Assembly (NCBI GenBank): GCA_029243145.1
Contig: JAQWSQ010000017.1
Coordinates: 1-64,000, forward strand
DNA length: 64,000 nt
Direction: 5' to 3'
From: Planctomycetaceae bacterium
GTDB taxonomy: Bacteria > Planctomycetota > Planctomycetia > Planctomycetales > Planctomycetaceae
Shown here: positions 6,173 through 17,293 of the stretch, piece by piece
Position numbering within the stretch: the first letter of the stretch is position 1
Layout: each line of letters begins with the position of its first letter
Program-made: the position numbers and the translations under genes
The notes under the pieces: model-generated
The model's input: only the letters and a program-made list of their open reading frames with translations
Told to the model about the DNA's origin: nothing
The model's database searches: none

Positions 6173-7378
6173 TCAGAACACCGTTCGGTCCGGCTCAGTC
6201 GCGAGTTGTTCAGGAGGCTCTTTGATGTCATACCCCCAAGGTTGACGAGAGAGAAACTCTTGCAACGATTTGGCCGCTTCCTGATGCCCAAACTCACTCA
6301 AATGTCCTGACCGCCTAGGGAAATACTCTTTACTCGCAGGGAATTTTCCCAATTCCAGTCCCGTTCGAAATGTTCGCTCTAGCGAGAGGAATGGAATCTG
6401 TGCCGATGTTGTGATCTGTTCCAGGCGTTCGAGTGGCAGGTCTCGTGAGATCTTTTGAGTAGGGTTTTCACGATGAACCTTGGCCACGAACTCTGCTAAA
6501 ATATCGGGGTAGATTGTGTTCCCATTCGGCATGGTCATGACCAGGAACTTTGCTCCATCGGCTTCGACATCGTCTCGAAACATAGGCAAAATCACATTTA
6601 GCAGTTTCCACGAGTGATCAAATTTGGCAAGTGGCGGGTCGAAGTAAATTTTGTCTCGCAGGTTAATTTGGTCGGTCTTTGAATTCCACGTTTTTCGCAA
6701 GCGATTGAGACGCTGTTTTTGCCAGATATAGAACCGCGAATGTTCGTTGAGCAGATTGTTGGCTTGTTGAGTCGATGGATTTTGTGTGACGAGTTTCAGT
6801 TCGTCATGTTCATTAAAGTCATAGTTTGCCAGAGGATTAGTCGATAATCGTGGGTTCAAGTCCACCAAATCGGTCGACATGCCGAAACATAAAATGACGA
6901 TGTCCGGGTCACACTGCCGAACATGATGCAGATATCGAACATGTTGGTCTGCGGTCCCCGTTCCGGGGACTCCGAAATTCAATACTTCCCACTGCATGCC
7001 GTCACGGTTTTGATTCAGAAGGGTTTCTAACTGTTCCGTGAAAACCTGATCCTGCGGAACTTGTTCTGCGGCAACAAACGAGTCTCCCAGAACGGCAATG
7101 CGTTTGATGTCGGGTGGCTTGGGAATGATGGGTTCATGATCTCGGAACCCGAGAAAGTTGGTTTTAAGTCGGATAAATCTTTGTGTTTCTTTGTTCCAGA
7201 CTTTGTGGTCAACATTCGGTGACAGATGTCGACAATGTTCGCCCCGCACAATCAACTCGAAAGGTGTTTCGATCAGATGCCGGCAACATAACTCCAAAGT
7301 AAAAAGGATGGCGACGATGTTCAGGCATGCCAAGCCGATACGTCGAAGTCGAGTTGTTGCCAATTTAAAGACGGTCAT
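6173..7378 (-). CDS. Membrane-anchored SGNH/GDSL-like protein, polysaccharide acetylation context
   Basis: A 401-residue protein with a single N-terminal signal anchor (about residues 13-30) and an extracytoplasmic domain. Block I of the SGNH fold is seen as AVLGDSF (Ser100 candidate nucleophile), block II as NFGVPGTGTADQ, then a DIVILCFG strand. The C-terminal His block reads RRSGHLSEFGH, where the Asp usually found two residues before the His in DGH-type motifs is Ser. That may mean altered catalysis. It lies downstream of a broken paralogue and an AlgI-like MBOAT gene on the same strand, the arrangement seen in alginate-type O-acetylation systems where SGNH proteins move acetyl groups to sugar polymers. 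That role is inferred from context. Confidence 0.75.
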   Translation of the reverse strand: MTVFKLATTRLRRIGLACLNIVAILFTLELCCRHLIETPFELIVRGEHCRHLSPNVDHKVWNKETQRFIRLKTNFLGFRDHEPIIPKPPDIKRIAVLGDSFVAAEQVPQDQVFTEQLETLLNQNRDGMQWEVLNFGVPGTGTADQHVRYLHHVRQCDPDIVILCFGMSTDLVDLNPRLSTNPLANYDFNEHDELKLVTQNPSTQQANNLLNEHSRFYIWQKQRLNRLRKTWNSKTDQINLRDKIYFDPPLAKFDHSWKLLNVILPMFRDDVEADGAKFLVMTMPNGNTIYPDILAEFVAKVHRENPTQKISRDLPLERLEQITTSAQIPFLSLERTFRTGLELGKFPASKEYFPRRSGHLSEFGHQEAAKSLQEFLSRQPWGYDIKEPPEQLATEPDRTVF

Positions 7379-7433
7379 GTCTGATGTTCAAAACTAAAAA
7401 TGGAAAAATGGATGGTCTGTGTGTGCTTAAGTA

Positions 7434-8656
7434 TCACAATGGCTCATTGGTTGGTTCGACAGCGATATGTTGAGCAGGTTGAAGAGAGTTCTCAGCCGGT
7501 TGATTCCACCAGGGTTGCGATTGTAGAAACTTATAAAGAGAGTCGGCAACAACTTCATGACCGAAAGGTGTCAGGTGCCCTTTGCGGTTGTAGTGAATAT
7601 TTTGTTTGCTATCTAATTCTCCCGACTCATAACCTTTCTGAAATTGTAGTTCCAGTGGCAGTAACGGAATTCCTACTTTCTCGCATATGGAACTCAGTAT
7701 CTCTATTGGTTGATTTCGAGACATCTGTTGTGTATATCCCTGCTCATGAGCGTTATCGACGAGAGCTTGCCAAGTGTCATCGTAAACTGTGATTCCGGTT
7801 GGCATGCCAACAATTAAAAAAATGGCACTATCTGCTACAACATCACTTCGGAACTTGAGTAGCATTTCTGCCAATTGATTGATTGTTCCTGCTCTGTGGT
7901 TAAGGGGTCAAAGTAGTATGTGTCATTATGATGGATTGGTCTTGAGAGAGACCGGTAATTGAAGATAGGTACCAATCGGTGTTTCAGAAAATCGACTCTC
8001 GCTTTCTGCCATTCGTAAAGTTTGATATTTGAATCCAAAAAACTCTTGAACCCAACAAATGCCTGTTCCTGAAGTTCAGTCGGGGACCTCTCTTTAAGAG
8101 TGTTTCTTCTCGTTCTGCTGGTCTGTAAGTCCGACCCTCCGAGGTCTTGTTCCATTCCAAAGCATAGAATGACGATGTCGGGTTCGCATTGCCTGATGTG
8201 GTGAAGATATCGAAGATGTTGGTCGAGAGGACCTGTACTCATTACCCCAAAATTTATTACTTCCCAATCGTTATTCCTGTTTGTTTCATTCTCTAACTGC
8301 TGTTCTAGGATATCCGAGAAACGGTGCTCTGATTCGACCTGTATTGCATCAACGTATGAATCGCCAATAATTGCAATTCGGGAAATGCCTTTTGGTTTGG
8401 GGATTGCGGGTTCATGATCGCGAAAACCGAGCGAATTGGTCTGAATATGAACGAGCTGTCCACTTTCGATATTGATTTTCATCATATCAATATTCGGAAT
8501 TAAAGTGAGGGTCGACCGGTTACGGATAACAATATTATTCTCTTGGTTCGTGAAATATTGGCAACTGATTTCCAGCGTGAGAAGTATAGCGACAACATTC
8601 ATCAGCCACTTGATAGCGAACCGAAGCCGTCTTCGTGTTGATGACTGTAAAATCAT
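7434..8656 (-). pseudogene. Second SGNH-like paralogue, frameshifted at a CAAT repeat
   Basis: Start ATG at 8656 (MILQSSTRRR), signal anchor, then LGFRDHEPAIPKP, AIIGDSY and NFGVMSTGPLDQHLRYLHH, each closely matching the preceding entry's protein. The frame ends prematurely after about 273 codons at TGCTACTCAAG... beyond base 7874, and the remainder (FRSDVVADSAIFLIVG through GHLTPFGHE) continues in another frame to a TGA at 7434. The break coincides with three tandem ATTG units on the plus strand (7874-7885). Adding one unit restores one continuous frame that aligns with the paralogue through the break. It is either a recent frameshift, a slippage-prone switch, or an assembly error. Intact length would be about 408 residues. 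Confidence 0.8.
7874..7885. repeat. (ATTG)3 tetranucleotide repeat at the frameshift
   Basis: Three perfect ATTG units on the plus strand (CAAT in the gene sense). Because the unit length is not a multiple of three, gain or loss of a unit changes the reading frame. Four units, rather than three, would reconnect the two halves of the SGNH-like gene. Confidence 0.85.
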
Positions 8657-8706
8657 AATTTGGCGCTCAGCGCGGGGTTCGGGGTTTAATTCGGTGGTAG
8701 GTCGTT

Positions 8707-10170
8707 TTAGAACTGAAAGTAGATAAACGGGTTGTCGGTGACGCGAGATGCATATTCCATCACAAACCAGGCGACAAGCGTGACTGCCGACCATTGCAGA
8801 GGTTGTGGCAAGGTGGAGTATTCCAGCGGGCAGTCGCGTTCTCTTTGAATCCACTCAAACCCGACAAGCAAACCAATCAACGCCATCGATTGACGCAGTT
8901 CGGAGAGACTCAAGAGTTCTCTCATCTGATGATAATACTCAGCTGTCAGTAGCGAGCTGCTGATTTTTTCGATGATGGTGACGCAATCGGCCATCGAATT
9001 GCCACGAAAGAAAATCCAGCAGAAGCAGACAAAGAGGAAAGTGGAGAAAATGCGAACGGCAACCATCGGAGAAGGTATCAGTCGGTCTCCACCGACATAT
9101 TTCAAGCCTCGCTTTTTTTGCGAGTTGCTCTGATTGTTGGTGAACGCGACGACCGTTCCGTGAAGCCCCCCCCAGGCGACAAACGGCCAAGCGGCTCCGT
9201 GCCAGAATCCACTGATCAAAAATGTGACCAGCAGATTCTGTTTCTGCCTCCATGCGGAAACGCGATTGCCTCCCAAGGGAATGTAGACATAATCACGAAA
9301 CCAGGTGGAGAGTGAGATATGCCAACGAGACCAGAACTCTCGCAAGTTTTGTGAAAAATAGGGATAAGCAAAGTTACGCATCAATTTGATGCCGAACATC
9401 TGAGCGGTCCCAATTGCGATATCGGAGTACCCCGAAAAATCACAGTAAATCTGGAAGGCAAACAGAAAGGTGGCGACTGTTAGTTCTGCACCTGACGCTG
9501 AGCCAACATCGTTGTAAGACGAGTTGACAAAACCGGCGACAGTATCTGCGATGACGACTTTTTTGAACAACCCCCAGAGGATACGGAGCATTCCCAACTG
9601 CATCTGTTTGGTATGAAAGAAGCGTCGTTGTTGAAATTGGGGGAGGAGATTTTTTGCTCGTTCAATCGGGCCAGCCACAAGCTGCGGAAAAAATGAGACG
9701 AAGGTCATGTAATCAACAAGGTTCCGAGTTGGTTTCATGCGCCGGTAATAGACATCGATTGTATAGCTGAGAGTCTGGAAAGTGTAGAAGCTGATACCGA
9801 CCGGCAGGATCAGATTCAATGTTCCGGTATCGAAATTCCAACCGACTGAGTCTCCCAGCGTGATCAGGTTGTCGATGAAGAAGTTGAAGTACTTGAATAC
9901 TCCCAGGAGTCCGAGATTACATACGAGGCTCGTGATGAGTAGCCGTTTACGGTGAACAGGGTTTTCAGATCGATGGATCCCATTGGCGAGGAAATAATCA
10001 ACCAGTGTAGAGGCCAGCATCAGGACACAGAAGCGGTAGTCCCACCAACCATAGAAAAAATAACTTGCGCAAAGCAGCAACAAGTTCTGCCAAGACCGTT
10101 TGACCAACAGCCAATAAGTCAGCCAGACCAAGGGAAGAAAAATGAAGAATGCCAACGAGGCGAAATTCAT
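8707..10170 (-). CDS. MBOAT-family O-acyltransferase, AlgI-like
   Basis: A 487-residue polytopic membrane protein of the membrane-bound O-acyltransferase family. Diagnostic motifs are ILPVGISFYTFQTLSYTID, FFPQLVAGPIERA, YCDFSGYSDIAIG, WSRWHISLSTWFRDYVYIPLGG and FWHGAAW, the last holding the conserved active-site histidine. Relatives such as AlgI, DltB and PatA pass an acyl group across the membrane, where an SGNH-type partner transfers it to a polymer. It is first in a minus-strand run with two SGNH-like proteins downstream (50-base gap to the first), so the three probably form an acetylation unit for a cell-surface or secreted polysaccharide. The polymer cannot be deduced, and no polymerase genes lie nearby. 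Confidence 0.92.
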   Translation of the reverse strand: MNFASLAFFIFLPLVWLTYWLLVKRSWQNLLLLCASYFFYGWWDYRFCVLMLASTLVDYFLANGIHRSENPVHRKRLLITSLVCNLGLLGVFKYFNFFIDNLITLGDSVGWNFDTGTLNLILPVGISFYTFQTLSYTIDVYYRRMKPTRNLVDYMTFVSFFPQLVAGPIERAKNLLPQFQQRRFFHTKQMQLGMLRILWGLFKKVVIADTVAGFVNSSYNDVGSASGAELTVATFLFAFQIYCDFSGYSDIAIGTAQMFGIKLMRNFAYPYFSQNLREFWSRWHISLSTWFRDYVYIPLGGNRVSAWRQKQNLLVTFLISGFWHGAAWPFVAWGGLHGTVVAFTNNQSNSQKKRGLKYVGGDRLIPSPMVAVRIFSTFLFVCFCWIFFRGNSMADCVTIIEKISSSLLTAEYYHQMRELLSLSELRQSMALIGLLVGFEWIQRERDCPLEYSTLPQPLQWSAVTLVAWFVMEYASRVTDNPFIYFQF

Positions 10171-10261: not shown

Positions 10262-11164
10262 TCAGAGAACAGTATTGGGGCGTCGTTTTTTTCGCCAATA
10301 AACACCAAAAGCTGCTACGCCTAGCATTGCCAGGCTCCCTGGCTCTGGTACAGAAGTACCGCCAAATGGATTCTCCGTGTTATCATCGGATTGCGGTCGG
10401 ACGGCCCATTCTTCGAATCCACTGTTTGCTCCAGCCGAGCCGGGAGGCGATCCAAACTGAGAAAACATCACTATGTTCGTGAATTCCGGGGCCAAAAAAT
10501 TAAACAGACTGTCTTCGACATAGAAGAGCATGTCGGCTGTTCCACTACCGCTGTTGAGCGAGTAATCCATGAGAATTTCATAGTGAGTGTCGGCATCAAC
10601 AGCCGGACTGTTCAAGCGAAAGAATTCATATGCTTGTGTGAGATCGGTTGATGTCAACGCAGCCGGAGTGGTCGCGGTGGCTTCCGTCACAGTAAAAGAT
10701 TCAACATCTCCTGTCGTGGCAAAAAGTTGAACCTGATTCAGTGAAATGTTCGTGTTGCCACTCTGATTGATATCAAGCGAGAATTCCAAGTATTTCGTGC
10801 CGCCTATGGTTGCGACCGGTACGGTCGTGATATCCAGAGGTGACGTGAAAGAGGGCTTAATGTCGTAATTGGAATTCAAGTCCGTGTTATAGCCTTGTTC
10901 ATCACCATTTGCTTGTACTCTTAAAAAATGAGCATAAGTTCCTGTTCCCGATGATCCATCGGGATCAAAGAATTGGGTGACGAACTGACCACCCACTGCC
11001 GCATTTCTCTGATACGAATCGATCCCATTGATCGGATCAACGGTGGTGGGATTCGTGAGATCGAGGATCTCAAGAGTGATGGCTGCATTAACTGAGACAG
11101 AAGTCACGCAAATCGCCAGTGCCACAATGATCGCGATGGATCGCGAAAGACAAGTTGATTGCAT
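10262..11164 (-). CDS. PEP-CTERM sorting-domain protein
   Basis: A 300-residue exported protein: signal peptide ending near NAAITLEI (about residue 28), a beta-rich Thr/Asp/Asn-rich body, and a C-terminal PEP-CTERM tag consisting of VPEPGSLAMLG, a hydrophobic helix and the basic end YWRKKRRPN. In this class the tag is processed by an exosortase and the protein is released or attached at the surface; no exosortase is in the window. The body has no recognised enzyme motif and resembles the adhesin- or matrix-like PEP-CTERM proteins common in planctomycetes. It is a single gene with a 91-base gap to the MBOAT gene downstream. Confidence 0.85.
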   Translation of the reverse strand: MQSTCLSRSIAIIVALAICVTSVSVNAAITLEILDLTNPTTVDPINGIDSYQRNAAVGGQFVTQFFDPDGSSGTGTYAHFLRVQANGDEQGYNTDLNSNYDIKPSFTSPLDITTVPVATIGGTKYLEFSLDINQSGNTNISLNQVQLFATTGDVESFTVTEATATTPAALTSTDLTQAYEFFRLNSPAVDADTHYEILMDYSLNSGSGTADMLFYVEDSLFNFLAPEFTNIVMFSQFGSPPGSAGANSGFEEWAVRPQSDDNTENPFGGTSVPEPGSLAMLGVAAFGVYWRKKRRPNTVL

Positions 11165-11965: not shown

Positions 11966-12389
11966 CTCTACGCTTTCCAGATGTAATCGGAGTTATCTCT
12001 TCATTCTCGTCCTGAGAAATGAAGGTGGTCGCATTATCGTGAGAGAGTGGCAGTTTGGTCAATGTGAGATTATCAGCCTATTAAAAACTCAGTTTTTCTG
12101 CGAACGGCTCTTTGAGTCGTGGATCAGCGTCATCAATTCGCGATGAATCATCAGATTCACCCACGCATTTCCGCTTTGCCCACTCCTCAATGACTGATCT
12201 TGCAAAATTTACAGACCAGACCTAACTTTTGTAAATGTTACGAACAGCAGCGCGGGGCAAGGATAGCCGCAAGCCACTGTTTTGTAGGAGGTTAAGGTGA
12301 TTGTGTGTTGCAGCCGTCGTTTGGCACACCAACTGCTTAACCTGCTAAGAACTCGGAGACTCTCCCGCAACTCGAGGAAAGAACAGAGC
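11966..12389. other. Intergenic region with a possible structured leader for the downstream protease
   Basis: 424 bases between divergent genes. Near its right end, AGGAGG (12286-12291) precedes a GTG at 12297 that is in frame with the downstream gene, but the 31 codons it would add look unlike a signal peptide. An eight-base inverted repeat AGGTTAAG (12289-12296) / CTTAACCT (12336-12343) would occlude that ribosome site. The remainder shows only a weak AAAAACT-CAG-TTTTT type palindrome and no RNA gene. Confidence 0.35.
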
Positions 12390-13586
12390 ATGGATGCTCA
12401 TAAGACTCGATTCGCCGCTTGGGTAGCGGTGATGACAATTAGCACTCTCGGCACAACCGAGGCTGCGACATATCGAACACCAAATTTTGTGGTGAACGCG
12501 CCGACGAAGGAGTTCGCAGAAGAGGTAGGAAAGGCAGCCGAGTTCTATCGAGAAGAACTGGCTGTCACGTGGTTAGGAAAGAAACTGCCAAAATGGTATC
12601 GCCCCTGTCCAATTTCTGTTCGGGTGGGACAGATTGGAGCAGGAGGGGCCACATCATTTCAGTTTGACCGCGGAGAAGTGTTTGGCTGGAAAATGAATGT
12701 GCAGGGGACCGAGCAACGGATTCTCGACTCGGTCATCCCGCACGAAGTAAGCCATACCATATTTGCCAGTTATTTTCGGCGGCCTCTGCCGCGCTGGGCT
12801 GATGAAGGTGCGGCCACCATCATCGAGCACGAATCCGAACGTATGCGTCAAATGCAGACGCTCAAACAGGTGACGAATAACGGAACACGCTACTCACTCC
12901 GCCAGCTATTGGCGATCAAAGAGTATCCGCAAGACATGCAGCGGGTTTTGACCTTGTACGCTCAAGGTTATTCACTGTCCGATTATCTGATTCAGAAAAA
13001 AGGTCGGACGAACTTTCTGGAGTTTCTGGAAGCGGCCCACCATCACGGTTGGGATAATGCCCTTCGCACTCATTACAAACTGAAAAACATCGAACAGCTC
13101 GAAGGCAAATGGGACAATTGGGTGATGGCTGGTTCACCGAGGCTGGAGTTGCCGAAGGGTGTTATGGTGGCCTCGAATGATTCCAATGTCCCTCAACCCG
13201 ACGTGGTTCGTGGACAGAGTCCTGACGAGGAATCAGATGAGGTTGTGTTGGCGAGTGCAGAGGAAATTCCTTCTGACCCAAAGGTCGAAACGATTAACTC
13301 TGGTCAGGACAAGATTGCTGCAACAGACGAAAATCCTGTTCGCCTGGATCCCGAAGATACAGTCGCCTCCGCCGAAGAGATTCGTTTGCAGGGTCGACTG
13401 AACGTCCTCGAAAGCGGTTGGGAGCCATTGGGTTTGCAAAACAGAGTAGAGCCACGTACGAAGAATGTCTCCAGCGTGTTGAAGCGTCCGCCATTTGCAG
13501 AGAGCTCGGCGTCAGCAAGCCGAGAGCGTCCACCCTTTACGGAAGAGGTTGCGATGAAGCGTGAGTCTCCCCCGTTTTCTCAATAA
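12390..13586 (+). CDS. Secreted zinc metallopeptidase-like protein (HEVSH)
   Basis: A 398-residue protein with a signal peptide (cleavage near TEAATYR, residue 26) and a gluzincin-like zinc site: HEVSH at residues 118-122 with a downstream DEGAA (138-142) whose Glu is a plausible third ligand. This is the peptidase_MA-like arrangement. The C-terminal third is low complexity and acidic and ends in three PPF motifs (RPPFAE, RPPFTE, SPPFSQ). The ATG at 12390 has GAGGAAAG upstream and gives a normal signal peptide, so I prefer it to the upstream GTG at 12297. It probably acts in the periplasm or at the surface. Substrate is unknown. Confidence 0.8.
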   Translation: MDAHKTRFAAWVAVMTISTLGTTEAATYRTPNFVVNAPTKEFAEEVGKAAEFYREELAVTWLGKKLPKWYRPCPISVRVGQIGAGGATSFQFDRGEVFGWKMNVQGTEQRILDSVIPHEVSHTIFASYFRRPLPRWADEGAATIIEHESERMRQMQTLKQVTNNGTRYSLRQLLAIKEYPQDMQRVLTLYAQGYSLSDYLIQKKGRTNFLEFLEAAHHHGWDNALRTHYKLKNIEQLEGKWDNWVMAGSPRLELPKGVMVASNDSNVPQPDVVRGQSPDEESDEVVLASAEEIPSDPKVETINSGQDKIAATDENPVRLDPEDTVASAEEIRLQGRLNVLESGWEPLGLQNRVEPRTKNVSSVLKRPPFAESSASASRERPPFTEEVAMKRESPPFSQ

Positions 13587-14619: not shown

Positions 14620-16104
14620 TCAATTTCGCAAAGCCCTGTTCAGCAAATTTTCCGTGATTTTTTGTACGCGTTCATCGGGGCCGTGGGGACGGCTCCAATG
14701 AGACCATGGCAGGACATGTCCGGGGGGTGAACTAAGCCCCTGTGCCCAGAAGATCGTGGCAGCATTAAACACAAAGTTTCCTTTGGGGCCTGGATAGATG
14801 GTGGCCGTCCATTGCTGAGGATTCACGCCACCTTGCCAGGCGGTTCCTCCCGCCACGACTTCCAGTCCTTTGATGTCGGCAGGTTGCCCATGATACTCCC
14901 AGCCGATCAGGCCGGGGATCTTGTCTCCCTGCTTGATGCCGGTGCCGGCAAACATCCAGTGATCGGGTTTGGTGATGATCCAGTCACCGCCGCCGTTGAC
15001 CGGTTCAACATTGCGAGCACCCATGAGCAACCCTTCATCGGGACCGTGATGTGGAAACGGGCCGTGATCTCGCTCTCGATTGACGGCATACTCGTTGTCG
15101 CCGCCGTAAGGACCGCCTCGGGAGATAATCCGGTTGGGAATCTCCGAAGAACTCATTCGAAATGGCGTGATCCAACAGACGCTGTTGCCTGCAAGAAATA
15201 ACAAATCGACACCCGCATCACGCATTTTAGTGACGCTGTTGAATTGCCGGATGTCCCAGTATTCATCGTGACCGAGACTAACAAAGACTTTGCATTTGAG
15301 ACCTCGATCGGGTGTGAGCATGTCGCTGTTGGAACAATAGGAGACATCGTATCCATGCTTTTCCAGCCAATACGCCATTGGGAATTCAAAAGGCAGAAAC
15401 TCCCCCGAACCGACCGTGAGTGGATCGTTGACCACGCCGTTGTGTTGGGCTTCTCGTCCATAAGGGCGATCAAACGAGACATCGGCCCACGGGCCTTGAT
15501 TGCCTTTGGGGTGTGTATAAATTGAGTAGTTGTTGGGCCAGCGATTGTAGGCTTGCCAGGTATTGTCGGAACATTGAAACAAAATGTCGGCTGGCCGATC
15601 ATCGGTGACAATAAACACCACGTAACTTTGCCAATAGGCTTCTTTCTCTGTCGGGATGGTCGTCATGCGGCCGAGATAAACGCCACTGAGCCACTCTTCG
15701 GGAATGGTCAGTGACAGGCTTGGTTCCCACACGCATTCGTGGAGATTTTTTTCTCCCGGCGTGGGAGTCGATTGGGTCTTTCCTGTGATGCGATTGTCTG
15801 TCTTCATCAGTCGCGCACCACGACCGCCGTAATATCCCATGCGAAAGATTTCCATCTGAAAATCACGTGCAGGAGAGGTAGATACCATGATGTCTAACTT
15901 CTCACCCGCCGAGACACTTTGTCGGGAACAGTAGCCTTCAATCCATGGCGAACGAAAGCCATCATTATCGACTCGGACGCGCGTCAGTTGCCAATCGTTT
16001 GATCCCGGGAGTTTGTTCTCTCGGACGATACGAGAGTCGTCGATAGATTGTGCGTCGGCATTCGTAGGGAGGAAGATCAGCAAAGCGATGAGAAATTTCG
16101 GCAT
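14620..16104 (-). CDS. Secreted protein with N,N-dimethylformamidase beta-subunit-like domain
   Basis: A 494-residue protein with a signal peptide (about residues 1-19). The N-terminal 130 residues form an Ig-like domain with FRMGYYGGRGARLM; the rest carries RMTTIPT, QAYNRWPNNYSIY, FEFPMAYWLEKHGYDVSYCSNSD and SLGHDEYWD, which are typical of the large-subunit-like domain of dimethylformamidase. Close relatives in planctomycetes and actinobacteria are mostly uncharacterised exported proteins, so amidase activity should not be assumed. The YCSNSD/GHDEYW segment belongs to a glutamine-amidotransferase-like fold. It starts 26 bases after the stop of the TIM-barrel gene upstream, so the two are probably co-transcribed. 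Confidence 0.82.
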   Translation of the reverse strand: MPKFLIALLIFLPTNADAQSIDDSRIVRENKLPGSNDWQLTRVRVDNDGFRSPWIEGYCSRQSVSAGEKLDIMVSTSPARDFQMEIFRMGYYGGRGARLMKTDNRITGKTQSTPTPGEKNLHECVWEPSLSLTIPEEWLSGVYLGRMTTIPTEKEAYWQSYVVFIVTDDRPADILFQCSDNTWQAYNRWPNNYSIYTHPKGNQGPWADVSFDRPYGREAQHNGVVNDPLTVGSGEFLPFEFPMAYWLEKHGYDVSYCSNSDMLTPDRGLKCKVFVSLGHDEYWDIRQFNSVTKMRDAGVDLLFLAGNSVCWITPFRMSSSEIPNRIISRGGPYGGDNEYAVNRERDHGPFPHHGPDEGLLMGARNVEPVNGGGDWIITKPDHWMFAGTGIKQGDKIPGLIGWEYHGQPADIKGLEVVAGGTAWQGGVNPQQWTATIYPGPKGNFVFNAATIFWAQGLSSPPGHVLPWSHWSRPHGPDERVQKITENLLNRALRN

Positions 16105-16129
16105 AGTGACTCTCCAGGATACGGTCGAT

Positions 16130-17293
16130 TTATTGAGCTAAGAGCTCCAGTGTTGCCTGCAATTCTTGAGTAAAACCATCCACCAACGAAGGTTGTTCTT
16201 CACCCGGCATCACGCTCCAGGTGTAGGTTTCGACTTCCAAGTGTGGAGTCTGGTCGAGTTCGGAAACGGTCTTGATCGCGATTTTTAATTCATCGCGGGT
16301 GGTCCCCAAGGGACCAAGATCGTCGGCGTTGACCGGGACATGGAAATGGATTCGCCACTTGATCGCGTCAGCCATATGAGCTGGTGGGTTGAGGCACAGG
16401 TCTTCCGTCAGATCAGTAATCGTGCGAATGTTGCCGTCTGCAAAGAGTGCAAACGTCTGATGCAAGTATCGTTGTTCCACAAATCCTGCCAGCATTTTGC
16501 GTCCCGCCTCGTTCTCTGCGGGATGATCGAGATCGATGGCACAAGTGATGTGAACTTTGTTGATCCTTATTCCGGCGGCATCGAGTGATTTCAGCGAGTC
16601 GGCGATATCCTCAAATTCGACCGCTTGATGGCAGACGTCGTAACAGACGCCAAGATATTCGCGGGCGAGTTTTGTCAGATCGCGCTCGATGGCTGCCGCT
16701 TTGAGTTCTTGAAAGAATTCAATGGTTTCAGATGTTGTTTCCAGGACACACAACGGTTCTGGTTCAATGGCAAGACGGATCCGTTTCCCGGTGTCTTGAT
16801 AAAGTTGTTCGAGATGTGAGGCCAGTTGCAGAAGTTGATCAATGCACTTGGCGCGGAAGTCGGCACCGCTGGTAAGTTGTTTGAATCCGAGCGGTACGGT
16901 GGAGATGCTTCCTTCGTCGATGTCGCCCATCAACTCAGCGAGAATTTTGGCGCATTCAAGTGTGTAGGTCAGTCGGTCTTCCTGGCTCCAATCGGGCACA
17001 TAGACCTGTTCTTTGACGCGATCCGAATGAAAGTTGCCGTAAGGGAATGCATTTAACGTATAGCAGATTAAATTTTGATCGGTGAGAGTCTGTTTCAACT
17101 GGCCAATTTTCGTGGTGTCGGCACACAATTCTTCGATTACCGGCTGCGCCAACCAGAGACCGGCTGCCAGAGGGGAAGTCAGTTTTTTCTGCATAGGCCC
17201 GGCGTAATCGACCAATCCTTGGCAGACTTCTTTAACGGTCAGTCCCGGATGGACGTTCGTGCAATAACTGAGTGGAAGAGTGCTGAGTGTCAT
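16130..17293 (-). CDS. EboE-like sugar phosphate isomerase/epimerase-fold protein
   Basis: A 387-residue protein starting PLSYCTNVHPGLTV, the signature opening of the EboE family, a xylose-isomerase-like TIM barrel. Features of the barrel follow: YTLNAFPYGNFH, AIEPEPLCVLET, GVCYDVCHQAVEF with candidate metal ligands, and HFHVPV near the end. EboE is known from ebo clusters in cyanobacteria, algae and other bacteria that move a metabolite precursor out of the cytoplasm, but the enzyme's substrate is not settled. Other ebo genes are absent here. I chose the ATG at 17293 because it has GGAG six bases upstream; a TTG at 17323 would add ten residues. Confidence 0.75.
   Translation of the reverse strand: MTLSTLPLSYCTNVHPGLTVKEVCQGLVDYAGPMQKKLTSPLAAGLWLAQPVIEELCADTTKIGQLKQTLTDQNLICYTLNAFPYGNFHSDRVKEQVYVPDWSQEDRLTYTLECAKILAELMGDIDEGSISTVPLGFKQLTSGADFRAKCIDQLLQLASHLEQLYQDTGKRIRLAIEPEPLCVLETTSETIEFFQELKAAAIERDLTKLAREYLGVCYDVCHQAVEFEDIADSLKSLDAAGIRINKVHITCAIDLDHPAENEAGRKMLAGFVEQRYLHQTFALFADGNIRTITDLTEDLCLNPPAHMADAIKWRIHFHVPVNADDLGPLGTTRDELKIAIKTVSELDQTPHLEVETYTWSVMPGEEQPSLVDGFTQELQATLELLAQ

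Follow-up and report, generated by a model that had tools for sequence, protein, structure and literature searches.

An SGNH-like gene of a Planctomycetaceae bacterium changes reading frame at three tandem CAAT units. We regard this gene as probably a young pseudogene, that is, the broken member of a tandem duplicate that lies beside its intact copy and that would have lost its frame by a single slippage loss. The locus is a fresh instance of an already known kind, the recently broken tandem duplicate. The analysis covered a stretch of 64,000 nucleotides (here called the window) together with related genomes and a sample of the remaining contigs.

Results

The frame break lies at the CAAT tract

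The features of the locus are as follows.

6173..7378, minus strand: intact tandem SGNH paralogue, 401 aa
7359..8705: 1.35 kb that the syntenic locus of G002 lacks (58 bases in that genome)
7387..7421, minus strand: decayed echo of the MBOAT gene 3' end (25/35 bases, ungapped, with a stop inside)
7434..7874, minus strand: rear part of the broken SGNH-like copy, in the other frame, open for 146 codons
7835..8656, minus strand: front part of the broken SGNH-like copy, 273 aa from the ATG at 8656 to the stop at 7835-7837
7874-7885, minus strand: three perfect CAAT units at the frame break of the SGNH-like gene
8707..10170, minus strand: MBOAT acyltransferase gene, 487 aa, upstream of the broken copy and in the same direction

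The SGNH-like gene runs from 8656 to 7434 on the minus strand in two frames, and the change of frame is at the CAAT tract. The upstream frame ends at the stop listed above, and the remainder of the protein continues in another frame to 7434. Both halves are open, with an overlap of about 38 bases. The front part has an N-terminal hydrophobic stretch and block I (GDSY), and its final residues are out of frame; it matches Pfam Lipase_GDSL_2 weakly (E = 3e-5, below the Pfam curated score). The rear part carries the block V His (RKGHL). The break sits two thirds into the copy, and the Ser and the His of the SGNH domain lie on different sides of it.

The tract itself (CAATCAATCAAT, 7874-7885, minus strand) occurs once in the window, against 0.03 expected for the exact string. 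The array comprises exactly 3.0 units, with a partial fourth unit on neither flank. It is the window's sole perfect tetranucleotide array of at least three units. Since a first-order Markov sequence gave an expectation of 1.1 ± 1.06 such arrays (at least three perfect units), the tract as such is ordinary.

The size of the lack was fitted against five homologues of the locus (the intact paralogue and the genes of G002, G030, G010 and G128) in an ungapped block of 42 columns. A lack of four bases scored 54.0, a lack of one base 50.4, and four other sizes 42.2 to 45.6. The best places for the four-base lack were 39-50 on a scale on which the CAAT tract occupies 36-47. The overlap agrees with the initial annotation, which had put the tract at the frameshift. 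Its proposal that a fourth CAAT unit is missing agrees with the best fit, a net lack of four bases, although its lead over a one-base lack was modest and fell short of a strong win. The family's conserved Trp of the break stretch would still be absent under the four-base reading.

By arithmetic from the Markov expectation and the fit, the chance of such a tract landing in the candidate stretch of about 27 bases is about 5 in 10,000, which makes slippage a plausible cause of the break. An excerpt of PMC3485313 describes three CTGG units in lacI as a known hotspot in Pseudomonas putida, at which one unit is gained or lost, and cites the same hotspot in E. coli. Because of this precedent, a one-step slippage loss at so short a tract would be an ordinary event.

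Three-unit tracts show no excess, and some occur in unbroken frames

CAATx3 occurs twice in the 5.2 Mb genome, the other occurrence being inside a long open frame. We counted tetranucleotide tracts over 570,802 bases, about 11% of the genome, drawn from 41 contigs or contig starts. This sample knowingly took in C116, which has the other CAATx3; the CAAT tract of the broken gene is carried by C231. Five three-unit tracts were found against 8.4 expected, and none of at least four units. Two of the other four three-unit tracts lie in long open frames, one lies in a putative 152-codon frame, and the remaining one is in no open frame over 80 codons. Given these counts and the tracts in unbroken frames, nothing in the sample points to repeat-driven switching. 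For Haemophilus influenzae, Table 2 of PMC2651432, the part of that paper used here, gives three units as the maximum expected by chance; strain Rd has 12 tetranucleotide tracts there, a count that does not change when the cut-off is set above three units.

Two longer runs were noted in the same genome: a C12 run (L108:9015-9026) outside long open frames and, within an open frame of 580 codons, a T10 run (L107:6173-6182; A10 on the coding strand). On length alone, both are better slippage candidates than the CAAT tract.

The intact paralogue and its MBOAT partner

The description of an SGNH-like gene with a tandem intact paralogue was borne out. G002 has a single SGNH gene at the corresponding place, with which the intact paralogue shares 80-81% identity. 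The intact paralogue matches PF13472 (Lipase_GDSL_2) with an E-value of 1.4e-6 and 29.4 bits, below the cut-off of 32.9, and its GDSF and GHLS motifs supply the nucleophile Ser (GDS) and the block V His. The catalytic Asp of block V, three residues before the His, is absent from the intact copy and from four syntenic homologues; it could sit elsewhere in these proteins. No curated subfamily matched the SGNH partner above its cut-off. An AlphaFold model made from three rows of the window had a mean pLDDT of 34.6. The SGNH partners of this MBOAT lineage (6173-7378 and L048-L051) keep GDS and the block V His, and are without the block III GxND Asn at its usual place.

The MBOAT protein matches PF03062 (E = 5.4e-29) and the solved DltB chains 8jem and 6bug. 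It has the His motif WHGAAW, and its C-terminus, FIYFQF (8710-8727), has the pattern FXYXXF, which an excerpt of PMC12148441 gives as the acyl-shuttle motif of MBOAT partners of SGNH proteins. WHGAAW and FIYFQF were present at all five loci looked at (the window and four relatives). Near the locus are a PEP-CTERM protein and a protein with a DMFA2_C domain (dimethylformamidase-like), at 10262-11164 and 14626-16137.

The broken copy evolves fast and its break appears young

Identity to the intact paralogue was 100/251 in the front half of the broken copy and 56/142 in the rear half, and the branch length of the rear half (0.86) did not exceed that of the front half (1.36). Because the rear half is no more diverged than the front half and contains no stop in 146 codons, the break appears to have come late in the history of the copy. 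The end branch of the copy was 1.20 and, in a ten-row tree, 1.38, against about 0.46 and 0.49 for the sister path. Its GC content is 0.43-0.44, that of its neighbours 0.48-0.49. A broken frame, the loss of a catalytic block, an adjacent intact paralogue and fast evolution are all found here, as expected of a pseudogene. A palindromic stretch lies in the leader of the broken copy (8662-8694) and occurs once in the window.

Matches to the rear half were found in 4 of 59 genomes chosen as relatives, and matches to the front half at 1e-15 in 22 of 397 genomes drawn from the class, the organism's own genome being included in both counts. Among three genomes of the genus, the best match of the front half outside the window was the single SGNH gene of G002; G001 gave only weak matches to the front half. 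Neither of these two other members of the genus that were compared has a copy of the broken gene. Of seven relatives whose loci were compared, four (G002, G030, G010 and G128) have the MBOAT gene followed directly by one SGNH gene. In G001, G059 and G027 we found a distant SGNH gene and no such MBOAT gene in the compared stretch.

Probable traces and timing of a tandem duplication

G002 is the one relative with close synteny (a shared stretch of about 22 kb), and it aligns to the window on both flanks of 7359-8705. Within the interval that it lacks, the echo of the MBOAT gene lies between the two SGNH copies, just before the start of the intact one, and matches the last codons and the stop of the MBOAT gene. 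This is the place at which a remnant of this kind is expected from a tandem duplication. A search with a degenerate pattern for the MBOAT end gave no match, and the echo was found by alignment instead. None of 4868 windows of the same contig reached its alignment score of 30 (highest 29); the echo is short, and 3 of 2000 composition shuffles did reach it. Judged from its sequence and place, the echo is likely to be the scar of a tandem duplication. We also considered a horizontal gain of the broken copy; the echo and the grouping of this copy with the local ones favour tandem duplication.

In the ten-row tree, the broken, intact and G002 copies came together with a support of 100/99, and the broken copy fell outside the pair formed by the other two (96/95). 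A FastTree tree of 22 rows agreed. A duplication after the split from G002 was rejected weakly, the forced pairing of the broken and intact copies giving a p-AU of 0.027 in the AU test. Because the tree places the broken copy outside this pair, the duplication probably predates the G000-G002 split, with the extra copy then lost in G002; this dating is tentative in view of the long branch.

Discussion

We propose that the lineage acquired its two SGNH copies when the SGNH gene was duplicated in tandem along with the 3' end of its MBOAT partner. The copy adjoining the MBOAT gene would then have changed at two to three times the rate of its sister. Later, one CAAT unit, or else one nearby base, may have been lost, the former by replication slippage. 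The shifted frame would yield a product that ends before the catalytic His block and that has presumably lost its function, while the intact gene may still serve MBOAT-SGNH acyl transfer to a surface polymer. The break was seen in one genome only. GDS and the His are preserved in this copy and its frame is otherwise open, so that it may be functional in other individuals, or the break may stem from wrong base calls.

The last point leads to the main rival, namely that the organism has an unbroken gene and that the apparent break arose as a consensus or assembly error in the draft genome of 232 contigs. In its favour are the single draft genome and a rear half without decay. According to an excerpt of a survey of frame transitions, a lone frameshifted gene that has no counterpart in other genomes is mostly the result of an indel or of a sequence error (PMC3711429). 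No second frame break was seen in the conserved genes of the roughly 22 kb that the locus and G002 have in common, which speaks against a generally poor assembly and does not clear the break site itself. At the 5' end of the frame 12288-13583, upstream of its conserved part, there is an additional short match in a different frame. The T7, T6 and (TC)4 runs of the SGNH-like gene are unbroken, and a tract of 12 bases is easy for accurate short reads. On balance we consider such an error unlikely, if clearly the strongest competitor of a genuine slippage loss. The initial annotation had held an ordinary frameshift or assembly indel to be the simpler reading, and the present data bear this out.

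The same annotation had pointed to phase variation; in this reading, slipped-strand events at the CAAT tract would switch surface-sugar acylation. The tract is indeed placed at the frame break, the gene class modifies the surface, and the licA, lic2A and lic3A switches of H. influenzae are built of CAAT units according to the parts of PMC2651432 consulted. The tracts tabulated there, however, have 5 to 51 units, three being the chance maximum. Here the tract is no longer than chance allows (1 against 1.1 in the window), the genome sample shows no excess (5 against 8.4 in 570,802 bases), and further tracts of three units are found where the frame is unbroken. Moreover, the gene is a fast-evolving spare copy that is absent from G002 and has an intact sister next to it, and its break comes two thirds of the way along. 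We therefore set the switch aside as very improbable; the literature matches listed included no title on phase variation in Planctomycetes. Still a little less credible is a slow reversible switch, built on only three units, of a second SGNH partner for one MBOAT protein. If true, the cell would alternate between one and two acylation specificities, by a switch below the tract length usually searched for.

Equally hard to credit is the production of the halves as separate or joined products through recoding or translational re-start: the halves overlap and are both open, but inspection of the junction by eye gave no slippery run and, near the first stop, no ribosome site combined with a start codon, an inner stop is found in no homologue among the rows compared, and the break parts the SGNH domain between Ser and His.

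A pseudogene broken by one slippage loss thus remains our preferred account. The locus offers a worked case against taking every short repeat at a frame break for a switch. The controls that matter are a genome-wide count of tracts and a look at such tracts in unbroken genes.

Comparison with known systems sets the locus closest to the MBOAT-SGNH pairs (PatA/PatB, AlgI with AlgJ/AlgX, DltB/DltD). As in these pairs, an MBOAT gene ending in FXYXXF adjoins an SGNH gene whose product has an N-terminal hydrophobic stretch, and the MBOAT protein resembles solved DltB. Unlike them, the SGNH partner here fits no curated subfamily above cut-off, its block V Asp is not at the usual place, and an extra, broken SGNH copy is present. 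With the lacI (CTGG)3 hotspot, as excerpted from PMC3485313, the tract shares three tetranucleotide units in a coding frame, where a change of one unit shifts the frame; the unit here is CAAT instead of CTGG. With licA, lic2A and lic3A of H. influenzae, in the portions of PMC2651432 cited, it shares the CAAT unit and a setting in surface modification genes; those genes have many units, whereas here there are three, two thirds into a spare copy.
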